Shown piece after piece: positions 4,101 to 36,916 of a stretch of DNA of 39,995 nucleotides (its first letter is position 1; every line of letters begins with the position of its first letter). The position numbers and the translations under genes are program-made. The stretch is taken from positions 1 to 39,995 of IMG/VR virus record IMGVR_UViG_3300030329_000859; one strand, written 5' to 3'. A model generated the notes under the pieces. That model made no database searches. It saw only the letters and a list, made by a program, of their open reading frames with translations, and was not told the origin of the DNA. Origin of the DNA: a virus.

Positions 4101-5756
4101 GAGGTACTCTTCAAGTACTTCCATTAATTCTGCTTTTGTAGCTTTTTCTATTCCTGCTTCTTTTGCTTGTGCTAAGACCTCTTCCATTTTATGAGCTTGA
4201 GGTAAACTTCCTAGTTCTTCTTGTAGAAGTAAAGTTTTTATTCTTTTATCATTAACTTTTTTTGATACTTCTATAAATTGTCTACCTTGAGATATTAATA
4301 AAGTTTGAGCCGCTAAAAGTTGTGCAGGTAAATCGTGAGCATGAGTTCCTATTGTATTAATATATTGCATTGGGTCAACTTTAAGACCTTTTAAAGTTTC
4401 TATTAATTTATTAGAAGCAGCATTCATTTCTGCCATAGTGACAGATTTAGATTGTCCTCTAATTTTATTATTAATAATTTCTAAAACTTTAATGACATCT
4501 GTTTCTTCATTAATTAATTTTAAATTTAATTCTCCTTTTATCTTTTCAAAATTAACAGGATTTTTAATTAACTCTGCCCAGTCTATTTTATTTTCTTCAA
4601 GTCCCTGGAATTTAGATTGTAACTCTTTGATTTCATCTACAATTTTTTTATCTGCTTCTTTCGTTGAACTTTTTCCTTTTCCTTCTTTTTTAAGTTTAAG
4701 AGTTTCTGCTCTTTTAAGTTGTCCTTTATATCTATTTACTTGTTTTTGAATATCTTTTTCAACTTTTATTGCTATTTCTTCTTCAGAAATTATTGATTGA
4801 GGATATAAATCTTTAAAATCTTTTGCAATTCGTTTTAATTCTTTTTTTAAATAATTAAAAGCTGGAGCAACTAGTTCATTAGTAACTATTTGATCAGTCG
4901 CCAATGCTCCGGCTTCCCATAATTTTTTTCCAAATATTTTAATTACAGGAATTAAAGCTGTACCTCCCATGTACGTCAAAGCACCATCTACAAAACCATC
5001 CCATTTTTCTTCAAAAAGTTCTTTATCTTCTATACCAGATATATCATGTATTGGCCCTTCTTCTATTCCAAACATATCTGCTATCATGCGAGTTGTTCTA
5101 TATTCTTTAGGAAGAATAAGTGTCTCTCCTATTCCAGCTTTTACAGCTTCATGAACTGGTTTTAAAGATGTTTTGTTTAAACCTTCAGTAGCTTTTTTAG
5201 TTTTTTTAACTAATTTATCACCACCTTTTATTCGACTTAAAACATTCGATATAAATTGAGGAGTTTTTTGAATAAATTGTGTAGGAAGTAGAGATGAGAT
5301 AGCTTTTGTAACTACTCCTCCAGTAAGCACACTCATTGTAGTTTGTCCTGCTACTTGTGCAATTTGTCCTCCAGTAGTGACAGGAGGTGGAAGAAGATCT
5401 TTATCAGTCTTTGCTTTATATAAACTATTTGCAGGTTGATAAAATCCATACATAAAACCTTTATATTGATCTTTAAAAGGTAATGTCAGATCTTCAAAAG
5501 TCCGTTCTTTTTCTGTTTCTCCTTGTTTTATTTCAACTGATTCTTGCTTTCTAAATGTAGAAAAATGATCTTTTATATTTTGTGGAAACCTATCATCATT
5601 CTCTATCTTACTCATAATATCATTAGCAGACCAGTTAGCATATGTTCCTTTTTCAGGATCAAAAATACCAGTTTTCATAAGGTATTGTCTAACTATTAAA
5701 GGAAGATGTTTGTTAACTTCAGGTTCTTCTATTTTAGCTTTTATTTCTTCAGTCAT
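1146..5756 (-). CDS. Very large internal virion protein (T7 gp16 position)
   Basis: 1536 residues, against about 1318 for T7 gp16. It sits between the gp15-like gene and the fibre, the gp16 position, so it is probably ejected with the DNA and helps form the trans-envelope channel. The N-terminal ~90 residues are polar. A hydrophobic Gly-rich stretch (GGQIAQVAGQTTMSVLTGG) follows near residue 130. The segment from ~330 to 480 is Lys/Glu-rich and helical. Around residues 660-700 the motif GMLSTPSTYAVNFAGTG resembles a conserved piece of large phage polyvalent and internal proteins. I could not find the lytic transglycosylase domain that T7 gp16 carries at its N-terminus. Assignment rests on size, order and helical character. 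Confidence 0.75.
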   Translation of the reverse strand: MTEEIKAKIEEPEVNKHLPLIVRQYLMKTGIFDPEKGTYANWSANDIMSKIENDDRFPQNIKDHFSTFRKQESVEIKQGETEKERTFEDLTLPFKDQYKGFMYGFYQPANSLYKAKTDKDLLPPPVTTGGQIAQVAGQTTMSVLTGGVVTKAISSLLPTQFIQKTPQFISNVLSRIKGGDKLVKKTKKATEGLNKTSLKPVHEAVKAGIGETLILPKEYRTTRMIADMFGIEEGPIHDISGIEDKELFEEKWDGFVDGALTYMGGTALIPVIKIFGKKLWEAGALATDQIVTNELVAPAFNYLKKELKRIAKDFKDLYPQSIISEEEIAIKVEKDIQKQVNRYKGQLKRAETLKLKKEGKGKSSTKEADKKIVDEIKELQSKFQGLEENKIDWAELIKNPVNFEKIKGELNLKLINEETDVIKVLEIINNKIRGQSKSVTMAEMNAASNKLIETLKGLKVDPMQYINTIGTHAHDLPAQLLAAQTLLISQGRQFIEVSKKVNDKRIKTLLLQEELGSLPQAHKMEEVLAQAKEAGIEKATKAELMEVLEEYLRLRQIHKVVNGARSDTGLALRVLQEVKTGDVNMNELFKRMGVQVERVAEASGEQNWEQAIEAMAEQVANYTNPSQAVGHSVGGSFWYDVFQLNNFKNITGMLSTPSTYAVNFAGTGIMNILETQEKYLAAMYTKLQKELGIPVEGATTFDEANAYVAGKLQALLSAAWYTDSKMLQRSSIGKGLNTFVTGKAPKGPLSHELTQQGLVVNEQTLGNTKIGVPDVLSAGLVNKYLNKLNPKLQLRDNGALANLINSLGVTLSIPGRVLLSQDTSFRDLTYIGVAHEHALKRAKQIAGPNASKEVIDSHYRELIVNLPEDIHKIADVEASISVFQQPLNKKGWNIENAIGQIERLRNAKLDPKLKDKWVADGLLPNALSSFILSQFPFIRTPYNIIKQGVQRSPIQAGYEGFTVAKDALQGVPHAVGKTVNTGANIFRSKGKEKIFVGENPFKTNRFLTDHKYRSESLSKLTTGAMLFGSGYWFIQESMSDDGLVLNDKKYTVELSKKDASRRDIDSEEGVIPPAILREDLTNGQLSVLNTGKADPLIQLIAVGAIYGAYDELVKEIKALEPHKVYTQEQTDQKLEELSSLMMYQVGTLLWEKSSLQGLKNILMHSGATGHPYADPGKLLADFKAKWIGKAPYSGFLQGLHRSIKNQKHFELSRQKRELVKKENSKKGEWIEGFDGVKIPLFETLENGEIRPYSEDKIQAIGTWQRALNAWIDSLRKEYILDPSLDIAEYFNNGGESPIRRGACQMFDLEGNNKGFSVQEAETFQRIYEQMLAPVSWKQVQKTNTSTLIRKLDIDFPHHKRWYNAPVRGTKESVPLDPTMQCHWGLGAALQNREVFNSPKFNTLVHILEGKKIKDIPSTQLKVPIIGKKGNITYKYVPKFTPIKEIIETYPLLIDEKNDVAYLDSTSRIALKEEVQELLKINRVIGWEGLKGEPRFASLQGKMLELQIINNRKVQQMQNTQAKTRMTTPDNTTQMSN

Positions 5757-5763
5757 TTACTCC

Positions 5764-8700
5764 TCATCGTGTAGGTGTAACAACATCTCCTAGAAGTGAA
5801 CTATCAACTTCTATTGGTTGTTCCTTAGTAATATTATCGGTTGATTCAGGAATTAAACTATCTCCACCACCTTCTATTGTTTTCATATCTGAAATATTAT
5901 TCACTAAATTTTCTCTAGTATTTAATTGAGTTGAGGAATCCGTAGTAATTGTTGTATTTATAAGATTCAGCATAGGAGTTAAATCTTGATCTGTATCTGG
6001 TTTAATCTCTTCTTTTTCACTTCCTTCAGAAAATCGACCTGCCGCATTATATTTTTTACTTACACTACTACCTTGACCTATTTTCAATGCTTTTGTACCG
6101 TCTTGTAATATTTTTAATCTTCCCGCTACTGAGTCAAAAGTAGCAACAGCTTCCATTATTTCTACTTCTTCATCACTCCATTTTTCTGGATTACTTTTCA
6201 TATTAGATATTTCTTGCTGTACCTGTTCTACAGTAATAGTATTTAACATTAAATTACGATGGGTACGAAATGCTTTTTCTCTTATTCTTTTATTATGAAT
6301 ACTTGTACCAGATAAAAACATATCAGCTTGAGGAACTGATATAATTTCATTTTCATTAGTAGGAGATTTAATTTTTTTCGGTTGAAAATATTTAGATATA
6401 TCTGTTAAATGATCTTGTAAAGCTCTATGTTCTGTCTCCATTTCATTATACAGAATACGATGATTTTGGGTAACTAATGGATTTGTAATCCCCGATTCAG
6501 TTTCACCTACTAAATATCGTCTAAGACTGCTTGTAGAATCATTAAAAACTTTTATTCTACCATATCGTTCATCTATAATTGATTCTTTATTCGTTATTGC
6601 TGTATCTAGATAATTTTTAATTCTAGTAAATGTTGGTTGTCCAATAATTCCATCATTGTAAGCATCCTCATTACGTGTTTTAAACCCTTGTATTTTTTTA
6701 ACTAACATATCAAGAGATGCACCTTCATTATTTTTTATTAAATTAGACATCTCTTTTTCTAATTTTACTTCAAAATTTCTTTGTCGTGTTTCATCAATAA
6801 TAATTTTTCCATTTCTTTGATCTGTCACACGTTGAAGTATTCCTTGCCATTGAGTATCTAATTTATTTCTTTCTGCTTCTCCATATAAAAAAGGTGTATT
6901 ATAATAAATACCTAGACCTGTAGAATTTACATTAGGTTTTCTCAAGGTTTGATTAAGCAATGTATAAAATTCTTCAGACATTTTTTCAAATTCTTCTAAA
7001 TCTTCCGAAGAACCTGTTAATTTTCCTGCATCTAAAAGTAATCGTGTAATAACTGGATCACTTTTGGTTAAATAACTTACTTTACTTTCTTCATATTCAG
7101 TATTTTCACTTTCAAATTTAAGAGCTATTCCTTCTTTAGAATTTAAATCTGATCCTTCAACTTGAAATCTTAGAATATCTTTTTTCTTTTCCCTTACTTT
7201 TCCCATAGCATTCTGAATTTTTGTATTCCATCCAGATTCTCCTTCCCATCCATATTTTAATTCCTCCACTACATCATCTTCAATAATTTGTAAACTATTT
7301 AATAAAGTGTCTAATTCAGAAAGTGCGGTATTAAATTGCGTAGCTGTAGAACGAGGATTTACTTGATTTAATTTTGTACCAGATAGCTTATTAATAATAT
7401 CTGATAATTCTCCATTTGCTTTACCTAATGTTTTTTCTATAGTTTCTGATGAAACTGGAGGACTATCTTCAGGTGCTTCTTCAAAAAGTTTTTCTAAGTA
7501 AGTAATGAAATTAGTTTTTATTCCTGTATCCATAAATTTTATACCTTCAAAATCCTCTCCTACTCCTTGCTTTAAATACATTTCATTTATAATTCTTCTA
7601 ATATCTCCTTTTGTATTTCCTTCTTTTAAAGCTCTAGTTACGAGAGAAGTAAAGGATGCTGTAGCATCGGATGCTAGTCCTTCTTCCTTACTTTTAGTAG
7701 TTTTATTTACTTGTTTATCAAATCTAGCTTGTAAATCTTTTTTCTTTTGGTTTATTTTTTCTAATAATTGATTGCCAGCTTGTTTATCTTTCATGTATAA
7801 ACTTAATCCATCTTTAGGATCAGTCGTCTTATCGTGAATAATAGATATTAAATTGTCAAAATAATTAGTATTTAATATATTTATATCTTGTTTTAAAACT
7901 TCATTTTCTAATCCCGATCTTAAAGAAGTATACACAATTCTATTAGTATCAGTATTTGATAATCCTTTATCTTTAAGAGATTGTATTATACGTGCCAGAG
8001 ATTTACCTGATGATTTAGGATTTTTAGAAGTTTGATCAAAATCAATACGAGTAGTTCCATGAGTGATTATTTGATTAATATCTTCTTCTACCTCATCAAA
8101 TGCTGAGTCATATCTTTCTTGATCATCTAATTCATTTTGTTTTTTTGCTATTACAGCTTTTATAGGATCGTAATTAATACGATTACCCGGTTTAGCTAAT
8201 ACAGTACCAAATCTATTTTCTTTATCATTAGAATTTACTAAATTGGAAATAGTAGCTACTCTTAAATCTTCAAGATGTTCAGCCGAGAATTGAGTTAAAT
8301 TTCCTTTAAATCCTTCTTTTATATAAGGATTTGGCCCTGCATTTTCTACTGTAGGTTTTTTAGCTTCTAAATATCTTTCATATATTTCTTCTCCTAGATT
8401 ATCAGCATTATTTTTGATCTCAGCATTATAACTTGCTAAACCTACTTCTGCTCTTTTTAAATAAAATCCTTCTTCCATTGCTTCCATAACTTTTTGGTAA
8501 TTAGGATTATCTATTGTTAATCCTACATTCTCTTTAAGAGCAATGACCTCTTCCATTATGGACATATTAGGATTTCTAGCAGCAATTTGTCTACCTATTA
8601 TTTCTGCTTTTGTTAGTTCTTCTTTTAATACTTTTTGTTTAGCTACTCTATCTGCCTCATTTACTTTGTTTTGATGAGCTTGTAATTCTAAATAGGAAAG

Positions 8701-27537: not shown

Positions 27538-27558
27538 ATACTATAAGGGTAGTTTATT
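27538..27558 (+). promoter_or_regulatory. T7-promoter-like motif between RNA polymerase and SSB
   Basis: The 21-nt element has core ACTATAAGGG followed by GTTTATT, and differs at only a few positions from the copy at 32867-32887. The core resembles the T7 promoter core ACTATAGGGAG. Read as such it points rightward, antisense to the RNA polymerase gene whose stop it overlaps. Orientation and function are uncertain. Confidence 0.4.
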
Positions 27559-29998
27559 AACAAAAGAAATACTTAGATTCAAGTACCTCTTCTATGTCTA
27601 AATCTCCCCTCTTTGGAGGGTTAGGAACATAGTCCATAACTTCCAAAGCTGATTGTTTAAACTCTTCAAGAGGATCAAACTCTTTATATAGTTTAACGAA
27701 TGCTTCTCTTAATAACTGTGCTAACTCTGGTGTCTTGGAAGCATGAGTTCCATACGAATCATGTATCATTTGATACGAGTTTATTCCCTTATTCAGACAC
27801 ATATTAACTGTAAAAGTCAATGCACAAGCATCTAAAGAATGTACAAAGTTAGGTGCAGATCCATTAACGGATCTTCGATTATCAATTCCTGAGTCATCTT
27901 CAACTTGTACTGTTGGTTTCACAAGTACACCATCAATATGTGTAAAAATTTTCTTCTTAGAAATATCCTTGTACTGTTGATGTATTATCATACCAGATGG
28001 TATCCACCATATCAAGGGATAATTTTGTTTACTCACTAAACTAGAGACTTTTCTAATCCAATCCATAGCTTCCCTTGCACTCACTACGACTTCCGTTATA
28101 GCATTCCATACTCTACTAGTGATCCAATTAACTGGAATATATAAAGGTAAGTTCTTATCCCAAGGCCAGTTTGCTCCATCATAAATTGCTTCTCTCACAT
28201 ATTCTTCTACATAACTTCTACAACTAAAACGAGTACCACCATAAGGCACTACCATAACTGGTCGTTTAGTCATCTTTCTATTTATGAGTCCAGAATTAAG
28301 CCATTTCTCTGCCATTTCATCTCCGTCCTCCATCTCTTTACGTACATCTCGTAGAACACAATCGGCAACATCTTGGTATATGTCTTGTGGCTCTTTTTTA
28401 TTCATCAAGTTTGTAGCTTTTCCACCTATCTTACACCTCAACATTGCCGAGTAGTGTTGTAAACCATTGTTACTTCCATCCAATGCTACTGGAAGGGAAG
28501 ATTTATAACCAAATCCTTGTTTCTTGAATCCTGCCCATTCATAACAGAATGCTAAGAATAACCACGGATCATCTGCCTGTTTCCAAAATCCACAGTCTAA
28601 TTCATGTTTAGCTGAGTTTATTATATTCTCAGTATTATCTTCTACCCATTGTATTCTTTCATCTAAGGTAAGTTTATCTACTCCTGCACAGTTAGCACCA
28701 TGAATAGCTAACCAATTTGCTTGTTCTTGGTTCTCTATCGGTAGAGCATTAGCAAAAGTTAATAAGGCTTTAGCATATTCTGTACCTTGAGGAGTAAGGA
28801 AAGAACTTACTGTATACTTTCTTCCTCTGAAATCCACTTGGTATGGAAAATACAATCCTTCAAACTTAGAGTACTTCTCTGCCATAGCTAATGTTCTAAT
28901 GAACTGTAAAATCTTAGACTTTCTTCTTACGTTTTCTGCATAGCATTCTGATGCTATAGTTTTCCAGTCTATAAATTTCTTATACATTTCCTCGTCCATA
29001 TCTTTTTTCTTCATACCTTTCTCGGCAGGACAAGGTGGTATAGTGGCCTCAGTTTTATCGGGCATAGAACCTATACTTGATTCTAGTTCCCATGCTCTTT
29101 TCATAGTATCTAGTACCTTCTTGTTTACACACCATTGGGTATTCTGTAGTGCATTTACACAACTGTACTCTTGCTTCATATCATGGTATGCTATCTCACT
29201 AGCTATGTTCTTATTACTTGTCTTAATAAATCCAATTCTCTTTGTTAAATACCCACCACTAAAAGGTGAAGTCCAATTCTTTGGACTACATACCATCGGT
29301 GCATAGGCAGGACTAAGTAGTTCTCCCTTGCTATTTATTCTTTCAATCCAGTCCAATGTGGTATCAGTAGGAAGAACAGTTAACTCTTTCTTCTTTCTTC
29401 CCTTAGTCATTGTGACTACTTTGACTAATCCTGTAGATCGTACAAGTAAGTCTACACATTTCAATCCTACTTGGATTCGCTCCGTAACTGTCCATGTATC
29501 GGTGTGTTCTACGTCTATCTTGTTTTTACAATGTTTTAACAGACCATACCTCCGATAATGTCGAGATGCGGAGCGTTTTCCCACTTGTTTAACTAAATAA
29601 TCAAAGTAATGTTTATCTTCTTTCCTATATATATTGAACTTAACTTGATCTTCTAATGCTTGACCTATCTTGAAGGCTAAATTAGTCAATTTTTGTGACT
29701 TAGATATACCATCCATGATAGATCTTAATGTAATAAAAGCGGATACTTCTGACTCTAACATCGCAAGGAATGGTGCTGATAATGCTTTTCTTCCTGCTCC
29801 ACCCTGTAATGCTTCTCCTACAAAAGAGTCTATCTTTCTGGCAAATTTATCTACACTCTGCTTCATTAGTAGAATACCGTGTAAAGATGTGGACTCTGAG
29901 GAAGATTCTTTTGCTTCTCTCACTTGTTTACGGAACTTTTCAATTCCGAATTCAATCATATCCTCTTCTAATTTCCTTTGCTCTTCAAATATATTCAT
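27557..29998 (-). CDS. Single-subunit phage RNA polymerase (T7 gp1-like)
   Basis: 813 residues, about 70 shorter than T7 RNA polymerase, the loss being mainly N-terminal. Catalytic elements are all present: VALDGSNNGLQHY near 504 (T7 D537), KRPVMVVPYGG near 577-587 (T7 K631 and Y639), MIHDSYGTHA near 745 (T7 D812). It transcribes the middle and late genes from phage promoters and is probably controlled by the lysozyme-like protein encoded at 26193-26621. Its own expression presumably depends on the host polymerase from the promoter near 34.78 kb. Shine-Dalgarno AAGGAAGG precedes ATG 29998. Confidence 0.96.
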   Translation of the reverse strand: MNIFEEQRKLEEDMIEFGIEKFRKQVREAKESSSESTSLHGILLMKQSVDKFARKIDSFVGEALQGGAGRKALSAPFLAMLESEVSAFITLRSIMDGISKSQKLTNLAFKIGQALEDQVKFNIYRKEDKHYFDYLVKQVGKRSASRHYRRYGLLKHCKNKIDVEHTDTWTVTERIQVGLKCVDLLVRSTGLVKVVTMTKGRKKKELTVLPTDTTLDWIERINSKGELLSPAYAPMVCSPKNWTSPFSGGYLTKRIGFIKTSNKNIASEIAYHDMKQEYSCVNALQNTQWCVNKKVLDTMKRAWELESSIGSMPDKTEATIPPCPAEKGMKKKDMDEEMYKKFIDWKTIASECYAENVRRKSKILQFIRTLAMAEKYSKFEGLYFPYQVDFRGRKYTVSSFLTPQGTEYAKALLTFANALPIENQEQANWLAIHGANCAGVDKLTLDERIQWVEDNTENIINSAKHELDCGFWKQADDPWLFLAFCYEWAGFKKQGFGYKSSLPVALDGSNNGLQHYSAMLRCKIGGKATNLMNKKEPQDIYQDVADCVLRDVRKEMEDGDEMAEKWLNSGLINRKMTKRPVMVVPYGGTRFSCRSYVEEYVREAIYDGANWPWDKNLPLYIPVNWITSRVWNAITEVVVSAREAMDWIRKVSSLVSKQNYPLIWWIPSGMIIHQQYKDISKKKIFTHIDGVLVKPTVQVEDDSGIDNRRSVNGSAPNFVHSLDACALTFTVNMCLNKGINSYQMIHDSYGTHASKTPELAQLLREAFVKLYKEFDPLEEFKQSALEVMDYVPNPPKRGDLDIEEVLESKYFFC

Positions 29999-31083: not shown

Positions 31084-31226
31084 TTTCCTGCTCCATAAAT
31101 ACTTATTATGAGAGTTCCATTTTCTAAGGTTACTTCGTATTCAAACTTCCAGTATTCCAAGTCTGATAGTATCTCACCTAGAAATTGTTTATGTTTATAC
31201 CAATCTAGTTTAATCTTGTTAATCAT
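31080..31226 (-). CDS. 48-residue hypothetical protein
   Basis: ATG 31226 overlaps the stop of the preceding gene (ATGA), so I chose it over a longer frame that would run through that gene. It reads MINKIKLDWYKHKQFLGEIL and ends in a beta-like segment (YEVTLENGTLIISIYG). No family recognised. Confidence 0.62.
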   Translation of the reverse strand: MINKIKLDWYKHKQFLGEILSDLEYWKFEYEVTLENGTLIISIYGAGK

Positions 31227-31489
31227 AGTGCCCACTTTCTCGGTCTGTCTTGTCTTTCTGCCACACTTTTGACATCTCTCACGTAAGTATCTCCATACTC
31301 CCATGATCCATATGTGTGTGGTGACTTGACTGCACAGAACCACCTAGCATACGGATTCTCTGCTTCTTTGGATGGTTTCTGCCACTTCTTCAAGACTCTC
31401 CATTCCCATACACCATCTGGTGATTCACATGTCCAGATCTCGTAGGGATTATCTACAGGCCTTGTCTTTGCCATTAGGTTTTTCTCCAT
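31223..31489 (-). CDS. Hypothetical early protein rich in Trp
   Basis: 88 residues from ATG 31489 behind AGGAGG. It has a duplicated-looking pattern: NPYEIWTCESPDGVWEWRVL and, later, NPYARWFCAVKSPHTYGSWE. Both halves share NPY-x(2)-W and a cysteine one or two residues on, so it may be two copies of a small beta motif. No family recognised. Confidence 0.68.
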   Translation of the reverse strand: MEKNLMAKTRPVDNPYEIWTCESPDGVWEWRVLKKWQKPSKEAENPYARWFCAVKSPHTYGSWEYGDTYVRDVKSVAERQDRPRKWAL

Positions 31490-31499
31490 ATATCTCCTC

Positions 31500-31652
31500 C
31501 TATCGTTGTCCTGACCAATTCTCGTCTGTACTTTCATACATACGTATCTGATCTCTGTCTTTTTGTTCACCTCTTGATCCTCTGAGGTCTATTACTACCT
31601 GTCCAAACATTCTATCAAGTTTTTTTGGTAGTGTCAAGGTTTTTCTTTTCAT
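31500..31652 (-). CDS. 50-residue basic protein
   Basis: Starts at ATG 31652, two nt after AGGAGGAAGG. The product begins MKRKTLTLPKKLDRMFGQVV and is rich in Arg, Lys and Asp. It lies 10 nt before the next gene. Function unknown. Confidence 0.6.
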   Translation of the reverse strand: MKRKTLTLPKKLDRMFGQVVIDLRGSRGEQKDRDQIRMYESTDENWSGQR

Positions 31653-32125: not shown

Positions 32126-32212
32126 TGGTGGGCAGGGTTGGACTCGAACCAACAAATGTGTGCACACGCCTGATTTACAGTCAGGTTGCTTATCCAGTTT
32201 GCATACCTACCC
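32126..32212 (-). tRNA. tRNA-Tyr (GTA anticodon)
   Basis: Full cloverleaf on the minus strand: 7-bp acceptor (GGGTAGG with CCTGCCC, one G-U), D arm, anticodon stem CCTGA/TCAGG around loop CTGTAAA (anticodon GTA), a long variable arm with GTGTG/CACAC, and T arm GTTGG-TTCGAGT-CCAAC. The discriminator A and a genome-encoded CCA follow. The long variable arm fits bacterial tRNA-Tyr. It is the only tRNA I see and lies among early genes. Confidence 0.93.
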
Positions 32213-32748: not shown

Positions 32749-32866
32749 ATTTACCTTAACTCATGATGGTTAAGTGTAGCGAACATTGCTATTAGGCGAT
32801 TGGCTCTCGTTTCCTCGATGTTGTTGAGGGCGTGGCAATTATGCTCTCCAAGATGATACGCTACAC

Positions 32867-32910
32867 AATAAACCTCCCTTATAGTATGTGTGAGAGAGGG
32901 TTAAACATAT
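32867..32910 (-). promoter_or_regulatory. T7-promoter-like element, copy shared with 37.2 kb
   Basis: Minus-strand reading: ATATGTTTAACCCTCTCT, then ACTATAAGGGAGG. The 18-nt first block occurs identically at 37226-37243 on the plus strand, there followed by ACTATAATGGGAG. ACTATAAGGGAG resembles the T7 promoter core. Here it points along the genes. Probably a phage RNA polymerase promoter, but only similarity supports this. Confidence 0.5.
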
Positions 32911-32911
32911 C

Positions 32912-33039
32912 AAGTAGAGTGAATCTCACAGTTATGAGACAAGGACTCTAGTCATGATTCAAACTAGACTGATAACTTCTAACTGGGTCGACCTCACCTA
33001 GATCATTAAATCACTAGCGAACAGTTAGCCACTCTACTT
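32912..33039 (-). ncRNA. Candidate structured RNA with a three-way junction
   Basis: In the minus-strand RNA a 10-bp closing helix (AAGTAGAGTG with CACTCTACTT) encloses two hairpins. The first (CTAACTG/CAGTTAG) begins 1 nt after it; the second (AGTTAT/ATAACT, with inner CTAGT/ACTAG) begins 1 nt later. Short linkers support a real fold. It is not a recognisable tRNA and has no known family I can name. It could be a small RNA or a processing element. Confidence 0.4.
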
Positions 33040-33047
33040 TTATTCTA

Positions 33048-33662
33048 TTATCTCCATATACTTTCATGTACAGCAGAGACATCAAAAGGTGTTGGAAAGT
33101 GTTTGGGATAGTCTACAGATCTATCTGTACACCATGTATTCCACAAAAACTTACACCCACCTATATCCTTACACAATTTAATATATTCTTTAGCCTTCCT
33201 TAACTTCACAGAATCAGAGTTACCTGATGTTTGGAAGTGTGAAGGAGTACCTACAGATGCATCAACATCTGGTAAAAACTTACGGATATTATGAACATCC
33301 ATACATCCTACCTTCCCTGCTACCAGTTGACAAGTAAAACCTGCCTTTGGTAGACCTAAACCCGGTACTTCAAGGAAAAGAAGAAGTAATTCAAGTTCCA
33401 TATCCTTCTTATTGGAACGTATAATTCGCATCATACGATTGTACAAATCCTGCCTATTCTTCCTAACATAGGCAAGACCAGTCTTTTTATTTCCCCAAAT
33501 CCACGATGAATTTAGACCACGTTTACGATACTCTCGCATCATACGAGGTAACATGCTTGTCTGTACTCTGATAGTTGAGAATACAAAAGCAATCACCCAT
33601 TCAAGGTTTTTTGGTGATAACTGTGCAAATCTACGAACCTTCGGATTATGAAGATTGTACAT
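33048..33662 (-). CDS. Putative helix-hairpin-helix DNA-binding or glycosylase-like protein
   Basis: 204 residues, the largest protein of the early cluster. The central segment LEVPGLGLPKAGFTCQLVAG followed by VGCMDVHNIRKF has the look of a helix-hairpin-helix (PGLG-x-x-KA) plus a conserved Cys-x-Asp-x-His, recalling DNA glycosylase-type folds. The N-terminal half is basic and helical. Similar sequences occur as unnamed proteins in marine phages, to my recollection. Shine-Dalgarno GGAAGG precedes ATG 33662. Function is not established. Confidence 0.68.
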   Translation of the reverse strand: MYNLHNPKVRRFAQLSPKNLEWVIAFVFSTIRVQTSMLPRMMREYRKRGLNSSWIWGNKKTGLAYVRKNRQDLYNRMMRIIRSNKKDMELELLLLFLEVPGLGLPKAGFTCQLVAGKVGCMDVHNIRKFLPDVDASVGTPSHFQTSGNSDSVKLRKAKEYIKLCKDIGGCKFLWNTWCTDRSVDYPKHFPTPFDVSAVHESIWR

Positions 33663-33687: not shown

Positions 33688-34079
33688 CAAGTTCCCATCT
33701 TAGAGTAGTGAACTAATTAGATTAAAATTAGATTAAGATACTGGTATAATATGACCAAACATATCTGTAGTATATTCCACTTTTTTAGGCTTACGTGGAC
33801 TGTAGTAAACATCAAAATGAGTTGCCTCACTCTTGATATTATGCTGTGGATGATGACCACGACCACCAGCCCAATTTCTCCATCTTACACGTATATCACT
33901 ACGAGTACATTTAAATCTTGCTACTGCAAGTTTACGAGCAAATTCTAAATTCTCTTCGGAGAATGGAATATACCTAGCCATACTCACAAAAGGTTTAGAA
34001 TCTTGAGTAGTTCCTAAAACATCGAATGGTGTTTCCATAGCTATCCTTCCTATGCTCACTACTCAAAGATGAGAACTTG
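33688..34079 (-). repeat. 26-nt inverted repeat enclosing the 101-residue gene
   Basis: Arms at 33688-33713 and 34054-34079 are reverse complements at 23 of 26 positions. In the coding-strand RNA two of the three differences are G-U pairs and one is U-U. The stem would close over the complete gene at 33733-34038, with its ribosome binding site just inside the loop (340 nt). The repeat ends sharply at both sides. Confidence 0.85.
33733..34038 (-). CDS. Hypothetical early protein inside an inverted repeat
   Basis: 101 residues from ATG 34038, preferred over a GTG 21 nt upstream because GGAAGG lies 6 nt before it. It starts METPFDVLGTTQDSKPFVSM and contains a basic, aromatic middle (DIRVRWRNWAGGRGHHPQHN) that may bind nucleic acid. 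It is enclosed by its own 26-nt inverted repeat. No family recognised. Confidence 0.7.
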   Translation of the reverse strand: METPFDVLGTTQDSKPFVSMARYIPFSEENLEFARKLAVARFKCTRSDIRVRWRNWAGGRGHHPQHNIKSEATHFDVYYSPRKPKKVEYTTDMFGHIIPVS

Positions 34080-34083
34080 TGTT

Positions 34084-34392
34084 TGACTGTACCTAGTATG
34101 AATCATGACAAGTTAAGTATCAAGTTATTTTTTACGCCTAATCCTAAAATGTTTACGTTTAGTCATTGCATTCCAGAATCCTGACATTTGCGGAGATATA
34201 CCTTCTGGAAAACTAGGAGGTTTTACTACTCGCATTTCGCAGGGTTCAGTTATTCCAAGATCGTTTAACTGGTCGATAGTCATAGTTTGTAGTGCCGGAG
34301 TATTATCTCGTACTGAGACAATTCCTGTATGATATTTAAATCTAGCCATAGAATCTCCTAAGTGAAGCCATGACCCATACTAGGCACAGTCA
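34084..34392 (-). repeat. 26-nt inverted repeat enclosing the 74-residue gene
   Basis: Arms at 34084-34109 and 34367-34392 match at 22 of 26 positions. All four differences are A (left, plus strand) against G (right, minus strand), giving G-U pairs in the coding-strand RNA, so that RNA forms an uninterrupted 26-bp stem. The loop is 257 nt. The left arm begins 4 nt after the neighbouring repeat's right arm ends. Confidence 0.88.
34125..34349 (-). CDS. Hypothetical early protein inside an inverted repeat
   Basis: 74 residues from ATG 34349 with AGGAG 5-6 nt upstream. It begins MARFKYHTGIVSVRDNTPAL and ends in a very basic tail (TKRKHFRIRRKK). The gene lies inside its own 26-nt inverted repeat. 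Stop codon is followed at once by a CTTGATACTT repeat. No family recognised. Confidence 0.7.
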   Translation of the reverse strand: MARFKYHTGIVSVRDNTPALQTMTIDQLNDLGITEPCEMRVVKPPSFPEGISPQMSGFWNAMTKRKHFRIRRKK

Positions 34393-34395
34393 TTT

Positions 34396-34731
34396 GCTTA
34401 TATGCTGTTAGCAGAAGGCAGAAGATAATATTAGTAATTAATTTCAGTAAATTTAATATTCTTCTTTCGATCCTCGTACTCCTGACATACCTCGATCAAT
34501 TCATTAAAGGTAATGTTAAAGTTAGGATATTCGTATGCCTTCACAGCATCCAGAATTACTTGTGGCATCTCTGCCTCTGGATTAATGTCCTTAGTAGTAT
34601 CGTATACTATACCTTCATAATTCCCTAGCGTACCGCATGGAATCGTTCCGATATTATACTTGCGATATTTAAAGATCATAAGCCTCTGTTAGATTAAAGA
34701 TTAATCTGCCTTCAACTAACAGCATACAAGC
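34396..34731 (-). repeat. 26-nt inverted repeat enclosing the 82-residue gene
   Basis: Arms at 34396-34421 and 34706-34731 match at 23 of 26 positions, with one more matching base inward. Two differences become G-U in the coding-strand RNA and one is U-U. The loop is 284 nt. Left arm begins 3 nt after the neighbouring repeat's right arm. A small AGATTAA/TTAATCT hairpin lies in the leader between right arm and start codon. Confidence 0.86.
34431..34679 (-). CDS. First gene of the early region, hypothetical
   Basis: 82 residues from ATG 34679 behind AGAGG. It begins MIFKYRKYNIGTIPCGTLGN and has an acidic helical second half (ITFNELIEVCQEYEDRKKN). It is the first gene after the sigma70 promoter near 34.78 kb, so it should be made first on infection and may act in host takeover. 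No family recognised. Confidence 0.72.
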   Translation of the reverse strand: MIFKYRKYNIGTIPCGTLGNYEGIVYDTTKDINPEAEMPQVILDAVKAYEYPNFNITFNELIEVCQEYEDRKKNIKFTEINY

Positions 34732-34764
34732 TATTCAGATTCAATTTTCAAAGAACGTGCTACA

Positions 34765-34793
34765 ATTATAAAATATAAAAAACAAAGTATCAA
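34765..34793 (-). promoter_or_regulatory. Sigma70-type early promoter
   Basis: TTGATA (34788-34793), 17-nt spacer, perfect TATAAT (34765-34770) on the minus strand. Transcription would begin near 34758, about 27 nt before the first inverted-repeat arm. It is the best host-type promoter in the window and should start the early operon, including RNA polymerase. TTGATA is part of the repeated decamer CTTGATACTT. Confidence 0.75.
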
Positions 34794-35248: not shown

Positions 35249-36916
35249 CTAAATATCCATCCATACATTAGATGTTTCTTTATATTTTGTTAACATCACA
35301 CCTTGTACAAATCTTTCAAGCTCTTCATCCTTTAACCTCCCTTTACGAACTTCTACCTCCTTATCAGCATCAGTAGCCATTTGCTCGACCCAATAACCAA
35401 CTCCCATTTGAAGAGCGTCCAACCTGTCATCATGAATTAATGCACCTTTATCTTTTGTAATTCGTGTCATCTGGTGAAAGAGCATGTATTTAGCCTGACT
35501 TTCACTTGGATAGTTTTGTACAGTATGTAAGTCTTTTTCAACTACTTGAGGATCAAAAACCAGTCTATGCTGATTCATCACAGGTTCAAGAGTGTCTATA
35601 ATTCTTTTTTCTTTTTGAATATTAGATCTAACCTCTTCCATACTGACATTGTATATCTTACTAAGAACAGGTTTCCATAGTTCCATAAACATTCCATCAC
35701 CAAAGTTAGACTCTATAAGAACTAAGTTAACTTTATTTCTTCTGGCAATGATTGATAATGCTTCTAAATTATCCTGTTTATACCCTCCTTGTAATCCTCC
35801 ACACTCAGGAACATATAGAATACCATTTAACATCTTTACAACTGCGTACCCAGTCTCATCTTTACCTCTTCCACTTGGGTCAACAGCTAGTATACTTCCT
35901 GTATATTCTATCCAGTCTCCTATTTTTGTTTGAGGAGAGTAATAAGCATCACCCGGTAGACCAACATTAGGAAGGTCAGTTAACTTATTCTCTGGATCTC
36001 TAGACCATACAGGTTTTTCTGGAGCTTTATCTCCATCTAAAGACATTATTATTAGATCACTCAGTTTCAAAGGATATCTATCCGCATCTGAAAGTGAAGT
36101 GTCTAGTTGAAATTGTAAATTAAAACCCGATTTTCCGTATGATAATTCTCTTTCTGTTAGATCTTCCCCGTTGAAGCGTAATGGATCAGTAGGATCTCCA
36201 ACATTATAACCATTATCAAGCCTATCTTGAATAAATGGTGCGAGTTTATTAGAATATCGAGTAACTTGTTTTTGATCAGGATACCTTGAAGGCCAAATCC
36301 TGACTTCATAACCTCTTTCAGGTAGTGTTTCATATAAGGACATCTCCGTTTGGGGAGTTCCTAAATAGATAATTGATCCTTCAGGCTTCAGAATAGCATC
36401 AAATTCTTTAACTGCCTCAGATAATTTATCTCTCATAGCCTGAGTCATGGAATTATTAGGAACTTCCACATCGTCTGCTACGATAAGATCTGCTCGACTA
36501 CCTGCTAATTGTCCTGTTATACCCACACTTTTTACTGAGGGGGAATGTGAGGCCTGTGCAGGGCCAACATCGAATGCTACCTTAGACTGTCTTTGCCCTT
36601 CACGTGATCTTAGGTGTTGAAGGATTGGTATTTCATGTATAAGACGTTGAGTAAAGGTAGAAAAATCATCTGATCTTACTTTTGATGCTGAGACTACTAA
36701 AACTTTCATCTCTGGATCAAGAAGAAGAGTGTGACACACAAATGCAGAAGTAATATAACTTTTTCCTACTCCACGAAAAGCCTCTATGACTCCACGTTTA
36801 GGTTTATTCTGTAAGAATGTTGCTATATCATACTGAAGAGGTGTCGGATCAGGTAAATGTAAATGTTTCCAACACACATATAGAAAGTTTCGGAAATCTT
36901 TTAATTTATTATCCAT
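35249..36916 (-). CDS. Terminase large subunit (T7 gp19-like)
   Basis: 555 residues, near T7 gp19 (586). ATPase motifs: Walker A AFRGVGKSY (46-54) and Walker B LIVADDVE near 144. Nuclease motifs: LAVDPSGRGKDETG near 341, IESNFGDGMFMELW, and HDDRLDALQMGVGYW near 490. It packages and cuts concatemeric DNA. The ATG follows the preceding stop directly (TAAATG), without a Shine-Dalgarno, so translation is probably coupled. The small subunit is separated from it by two other genes, which is unusual. Confidence 0.95.
   Translation of the reverse strand: MDNKLKDFRNFLYVCWKHLHLPDPTPLQYDIATFLQNKPKRGVIEAFRGVGKSYITSAFVCHTLLLDPEMKVLVVSASKVRSDDFSTFTQRLIHEIPILQHLRSREGQRQSKVAFDVGPAQASHSPSVKSVGITGQLAGSRADLIVADDVEVPNNSMTQAMRDKLSEAVKEFDAILKPEGSIIYLGTPQTEMSLYETLPERGYEVRIWPSRYPDQKQVTRYSNKLAPFIQDRLDNGYNVGDPTDPLRFNGEDLTERELSYGKSGFNLQFQLDTSLSDADRYPLKLSDLIIMSLDGDKAPEKPVWSRDPENKLTDLPNVGLPGDAYYSPQTKIGDWIEYTGSILAVDPSGRGKDETGYAVVKMLNGILYVPECGGLQGGYKQDNLEALSIIARRNKVNLVLIESNFGDGMFMELWKPVLSKIYNVSMEEVRSNIQKEKRIIDTLEPVMNQHRLVFDPQVVEKDLHTVQNYPSESQAKYMLFHQMTRITKDKGALIHDDRLDALQMGVGYWVEQMATDADKEVEVRKGRLKDEELERFVQGVMLTKYKETSNVWMDI

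Follow-up and report, generated by a model that had tools for sequence, protein, structure and literature searches.

Why should three short genes of a phage each be enclosed by a long inverted repeat of their own? This question is raised by IMGVR_UViG_3300030329_000859, a virus contig of 39,995 bases with a T7-like phage gene set, which was analysed over its whole length (hereafter the window). The minus strand carries the large genes, among them those for a single-subunit RNA polymerase (27557-29998, minus strand) and the large terminase (35249-36916, minus strand), and further T7-like genes encode a primase/helicase, a DNA polymerase, a ribonucleotide reductase and a head-tail adaptor. Cultured phages are all distant from this phage, with LUZ100 among the closest (39% identity in the polymerase, 60% in the terminase). 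The terminase gene is followed by approximately 500 non-coding bases, the three enclosed genes (A, B and C), gene D (33048-33662), which lies outside the inverted repeats, a set of small genes and the polymerase gene. A tRNA-Tyr (GTA) is located in the early region as well (32126-32212, minus strand); it was the sole match in an Rfam search of the window.

The ringed genes and their leader

The original prediction had described three inverted repeats with one whole open reading frame in each loop, and all of them were recovered, including the extension of the third to 27 positions. In the following, a gene together with its two arms is called a ring; all three rings lie on the minus strand, and the arms are assigned from the inverted repeats together with the covariation described below. 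Ring A consists of a 27-nt 5' arm (34705..34731), gene A (34431..34679, 82 amino acids) and a 3' arm (34396..34422). Ring B has a 26-nt 5' arm (34367..34392), which is also able to pair with its own start-codon region, gene B (34125..34349), which encodes a basic protein of 74 amino acids and occurs only in ring-bearing contigs, and a 3' arm (34084..34109). Ring C comprises a 26-nt 5' arm (34054..34079), gene C (33733..34038, 101 amino acids) and a 3' arm (33688..33713). None of the three proteins has an assigned function, and protein family and fold searches with the ring proteins returned nothing usable. The rings follow each other head to tail with gaps of only 3 and 4 nt.

Over three times 26 positions we counted 68 Watson-Crick pairs, eight G-U pairs in the coding (minus) strand and two mismatches, the composition that had been claimed. 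The stem scores of 57, 56 and 54 are the three best of all long-range inverted repeats in the 40-kb record; the next-best stem of the window with a loop of more than 150 nt scores 39, and 25 shuffles of the 40 kb that preserved dinucleotides reached 45 at most. The ring stems are thus confirmed to be far beyond chance. A gapped stem search was uninformative because the opposite strand scored similarly. Folding of the transcript, which had been proposed as a check, gave a minimum-energy structure of the region that holds all three stems, with mean pairing probabilities of 0.87, 0.99 and 0.94 in a predicted early transcript of 2,018 nt.

Upstream of ring A lies a sigma70-like promoter, TTGATA-17-TATAAT (34765..34793, minus strand), which matches the consensus at 11 of 12 positions and is a probable early start. 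It is the best site of the region, while the promoter scan overall gave no more sites than shuffles, and several relatives show a similar promoter-like sequence upstream of their first ring. This site and the gene order would fit an early polycistronic transcript that host polymerase makes upstream of the phage's own polymerase gene. That the ring genes are early is inferred from sequence alone, namely from this promoter and from their place ahead of the RNA polymerase gene.

Directly behind the promoter, and 2 nt before ring A, we found a boxA-like element, GTTCTTTGAAAATTGAATCTGAA (34734..34756, minus strand). BoxA is the Nus-factor site of rRNA leaders, with the gamma-proteobacterial consensus GYTCTTTAANA (PMC5725501). 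A version of the element precedes the first ring in those relatives that reach that far, and two of them (L039 and L041) carry a second copy between their first two rings. Seven of the 19 boxA-like sites in the group read TCTTAGA and are off consensus, so that boxA function is uncertain at these sites. A variant with G, GTTCTTTGACAATTGAATA, was detected with a shorter pattern in multi-copy contig-end elements of two bacterial genomes (GTDB). Ribosomal RNA leaders often show up in assemblies as multi-copy elements at contig ends, and we infer that these elements look like rRNA leaders, with no rRNA present on the fetched pieces; matches to the exact boxA pattern in GTDB genomes were without an rRNA neighbour. 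BoxA-like sequences also occur in the early leaders of T7 (L205:814), LUZ100 (L196:648) and Rhizobium phage RHEph01 (L202:643), in each case of the type, gamma or alpha, that one would expect from the host. Judged from these sequences, boxA-like early leaders may possibly be general among T7-like phages; no paper on them was found in the open-access literature. From the boxA variant one may guess that the host of the ring phages is an alphaproteobacterium.

Conservation and turnover of the rings

Relatives were collected from IMG/VR contigs via the polymerase, the terminase and genes D, C and B. One to three tandem rings were present at the same place in 21 related contigs besides the window. 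Their stems mostly span 24-31 bp (a few scored runs are longer, with weak ends), and this length of approximately 24-31 bp is kept whatever the loop size (193-586 nt) and even where the gene inside differs.

Covariation was counted on MAFFT alignments of whole rings, with shuffles as the control. In the ring C stem, 95.6% of cells are paired over 16 sequences, double-sided changes occur at 12 of 27 pairs, and the number of double-sided cells is 64 compared to 24 in shuffles (0/500). The corresponding values are 94.5% paired cells, 13 of 26 pairs and 45 versus 17 cells for ring B, and 92.5%, 6 of 27 pairs and 9 versus 3 cells for ring A. Sliding the partner by 1-3 columns lowered pairing to 30-50%. 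The 25 distinct arm pairs together contain 600 Watson-Crick pairs, 51 G-U pairs and a single A-C pair. Pairing at the DNA level predicts G-T and A-C in equal number; the ratio of 51 G-U to one A-C therefore indicates that selection acts on the coding-strand RNA. Another 26 positions are mismatched, each time by two pyrimidines (U-U in 21 cases); usually one such mismatch sits near the middle of the helix, and in ring C of L039 and L041 both bases of this central mismatch are gone and the helix is perfect. The prediction of selection on an RNA helix around each gene hence passed the test set for it beforehand, with compensatory changes in all three stems, and the uncompensated arm changes that would have spoken against it were few in the relatives apart from the conserved pyrimidine mismatches. 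These comparisons show that selection maintains the coding-strand RNA helices.

The rings have a narrow distribution. Ring C is present in all 18 contigs whose gene C is at least 72% identical, and no convincing ring C was detected in any of the six contigs with a gene C of 52% identity or less. Terminase relatives at approximately 77% identity or less showed no comparable rings where the sequence suffices, the early regions of nine other phages (cultured relatives, T7 included) contained no convincing rings, and a search with the ring A arm core across IMG/VR retrieved no new ring outside the clade. Because rings are absent from the more distant contigs and from the other phages, the arrangement is, within the sequences compared, a feature of one close group of ocean phages. 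A stem of HTVC019P with a score of 46.5 was rejected as a ring, as it appears to consist of two terminator-like hairpins. No ring could be detected in L154-L159, whose gene C homologues are distant (34-52% identity). L037 ends in an inverted repeat of 333 bp (4987-6178), which is probably an assembly artefact.

Within this group the content of the locus is variable. In L004, whose polymerase is 97% identical to that of the window, the boxA-like element runs straight into ring B and ring A is cleanly absent, while the start of ring A is present in L015 from the same sample. L022 and L032 have kept the stem and leader of ring A around a protein without detectable similarity. A second gene lies within ring B in seven contigs (L006, L011, L012, L017, L018, L020 and L042), and the one in L012 is 57% identical to an unringed gene of the window (31223-31570). 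In L039, L040, L041 and L068 the first ring is another one, unrelated in both stem and gene, and ring C of L020 encloses a non-coding RNA. Arm sequences are unrelated between different rings. The contig comparison thus shows that the rings behave as modules, which appear, disappear and are refilled as wholes.

Masking of the ribosome site and a model of processing

When the 3' arm was left out of the fold, most 5' arms found a partner in the leader, the ribosome site or the start-codon region of their own ring. In ring A, a leader segment beside the ribosome site (34686..34699, minus strand) nearly repeats the sequence of the 3' arm and is thereby a possible partner of the 5' arm; this leader is kept even where the enclosed gene is unrelated, and in the window one position has changed jointly in all three strands. 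By computation, the ribosome region becomes easier to open once the 3' arm is added in all 25 rings; in most of them the energy required drops from approximately 6-13 to 4-6 kcal/mol. Compared to shuffled arms, real 5' arms mask more on average (mean z 1.8), with p-values of 0.003-0.056 in A rings and of 0.1-0.5 in several B and C rings, and in 24 of 25 rings the ring's own arm masks more than foreign arms do on average. The 25 rings are related and these tests are therefore not independent. In all 25 rings the 3' arm pairs with an arm whose last base lies 14-38 nt ahead of the start codon. When only the inner 12 bp were retained, as after a cut in the middle of the stem, the helix survived in all but one of the 25 rings, with the ribosome site still open. 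According to these computations the 5' arm can keep the ribosome site covered as long as the 3' arm has not been transcribed, with good support in ring A and weaker support in rings B and C. The original prediction had named hiding of ribosome sites as an alternative role of the stems; masking as such is supported, but its form differs, as the 5' arm masks before the stem exists and the long stem frees the site.

We cautiously favour a model in which the early transcript imitates an rRNA precursor, with stems that form co-transcriptionally, cuts by RNase III, clasped single mRNAs and masked ribosome sites; cleavage is inferred here and not shown. Host RNA polymerase would start just upstream of the first ring, and the boxA-like leader would probably recruit Nus antitermination factors, which is likewise inferred. 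Before its 3' arm exists, each 5' arm is computed to pair with its own ribosome-binding region, so that efficient translation would be confined to complete transcripts. As each gene is finished, the complementary arms would pair and produce a chain of 24-31-bp helices, which RNase III may cut, probably near the middle, to yield one mRNA per ring. The ends of the released mRNA would stay paired via the inner half of the stem, as computed for the inner clasp, and this should protect the mRNA, although stabilisation is an inference. If translation is masked until a gene is finished, transcription would be uncoupled from ribosomes, and we propose that a Rho-blocking boxA would then be useful. Three observations count against the model: the boxA-like sites depart from the consensus in seven of 19 cases, the central U-U mismatch is unexplained by RNase III recognition alone, and masking is weak in several B and C rings, with tests that are not independent because the rings are related.

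The same masking data could mean that the stems mainly control translation, the 5' arm hiding the site in nascent or 3'-degraded mRNA and the 3' arm freeing it, with cleavage incidental or absent. The fall in predicted opening cost in 25 of 25 rings, the advantage of own arms over foreign arms in 24 of 25 and over shuffled arms on average, and the ring A leader retained around an unrelated gene are what such a function would leave behind. Several B and C rings, however, mask no better than shuffled arms and have equally conserved stems, and some 26 bp are not needed for this purpose alone, which makes the explanation unlikely in our view, if still worth keeping. Slightly less credit still is given to the stems as passive clasps against exonucleases and RNase E, with cuts in single-stranded linkers separating the rings without RNase III. 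One helix does bury both ends of each message, and short A-rich linkers are left between most rings. The spacers are mostly 0-7 nt long, but in L011, L022, L032 and L042 no linker remains, as the arms of adjacent rings touch or overlap by 1-2 nt, and RNase III is expected to be attracted to a 26-bp duplex. With touching or overlapping arms and short spacers, neighbouring rings would most naturally be separated by cleavage within the helix.

A role of the inverted repeats in DNA, for instance in recombination, cassette exchange, replication or packaging, would suit the cassette behaviour seen in the clean absence of ring A from L004 and the exchanged ring A gene in L022 and L032. The excess of G-U over A-C on one strand cannot stem from DNA pairing, though, and the unrelated arms of different rings offer no common recombination site, so that this explanation is largely refuted and we give it almost no weight. 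The rRNA-like processing model, which we prefer, can be taken a step further: the phage early genes may form a chain of self-closing mRNA modules, each with its own RNA latch that holds translation back up to the completion of its gene's transcript, on a transcript resembling an rRNA operon from which RNase III releases clasped mRNAs. We offer this extended version only tentatively and with more doubt than conviction. If it holds, every module brings its own latch, and the gene set could be altered by insertion, loss or exchange with no need for rewiring.

Known counterparts and neighbouring structured RNAs

T7 RNase III sites are local hairpins between genes. The ring phages resemble T7 in being T7-like, in the genome position of their early genes and in the boxA-like leader, and they would also share the release of single early mRNAs, which is only proposed for the rings. 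Local hairpins of the T7 type were ruled out here: none of six spacers gave a better local fold than shuffled sequence (z 0.28 to 1.35), and the pairing of the arms spans the gene.

In Escherichia coli, the leader-trailer helices cut by RNase III measure 27 bp in pre-23S and approximately 30 bp in pre-16S rRNA (PMC10250234). With these 16S and 23S precursors the rings share a long covarying helix (26-30 bp) around a whole transcribed unit, tandem units on one transcript of the host polymerase (predicted for the phage) and a boxA-like element in the leader, in two relatives also between units. The comparison with rRNA precursors drawn in the original prediction gains support from this element beside the first ring. 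In contrast to the precursors, the rings enclose protein-coding mRNAs of 193-586 nt with a gene content that varies among relatives, and the phage 5' arm has the ribosome site as a second possible partner. By analogy, the phage transcript would work as these precursors do, yet with mRNAs as the enclosed units it falls outside their family.

Pairing between the two ends of a single bacterial mRNA that alters translation, predicted for the rings, has counterparts elsewhere. In hok of plasmid R1, 5'-3' pairing takes place within one bacterial mRNA. In icaR of Staphylococcus aureus, translation is repressed by a 3' UTR that base-pairs with the ribosome site itself, and RNase III cuts the duplex (PMC3868564). 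Both are single genes, whereas the phage design is repeated in tandem, and unlike the icaR 3' UTR the phage 3' arm has an upstream arm as its partner, a pairing that according to the predictions exposes the ribosome site. No report of tandem mRNA-enclosing helices in phages was found in the open-access literature; long helices around whole units are known for stable RNAs, and the same literature yielded no precedent in which successive protein-coding genes are enclosed. Should the rings function in the proposed way, the phage has moved the layout of rRNA processing and antitermination onto its early mRNAs, which bears on the stability of T7-like early messages and their freedom from Rho termination, and offers a natural design for an mRNA that is translated only when complete.

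Two conserved structured RNAs lie near the rings on the minus strand. The branched RNA nc1 (32913..33038) is closed by AGTAGAGTG:CACTCTACT, and its arms show compensatory changes. Further copies are found in L020 (5006-5140) and L021 (5321-5480); nc1 is located inside ring C in L020 and after gene D in the window. The second RNA, nc2 (32758..32872), has its own closing stem and directly follows ring C in most relatives, with copies in L040 (9110-9217), L018 (9255-9369) and L011 (1880-2069). It is not contained in Rfam, and its covariance model matches only within the ring clade. The core of nc2 is almost invariant (GUAUCAUCUUGGAGAGC ... GCCUAAUAGCAAUGUUC), while its closing stem covaries and its inner hairpin is variable.
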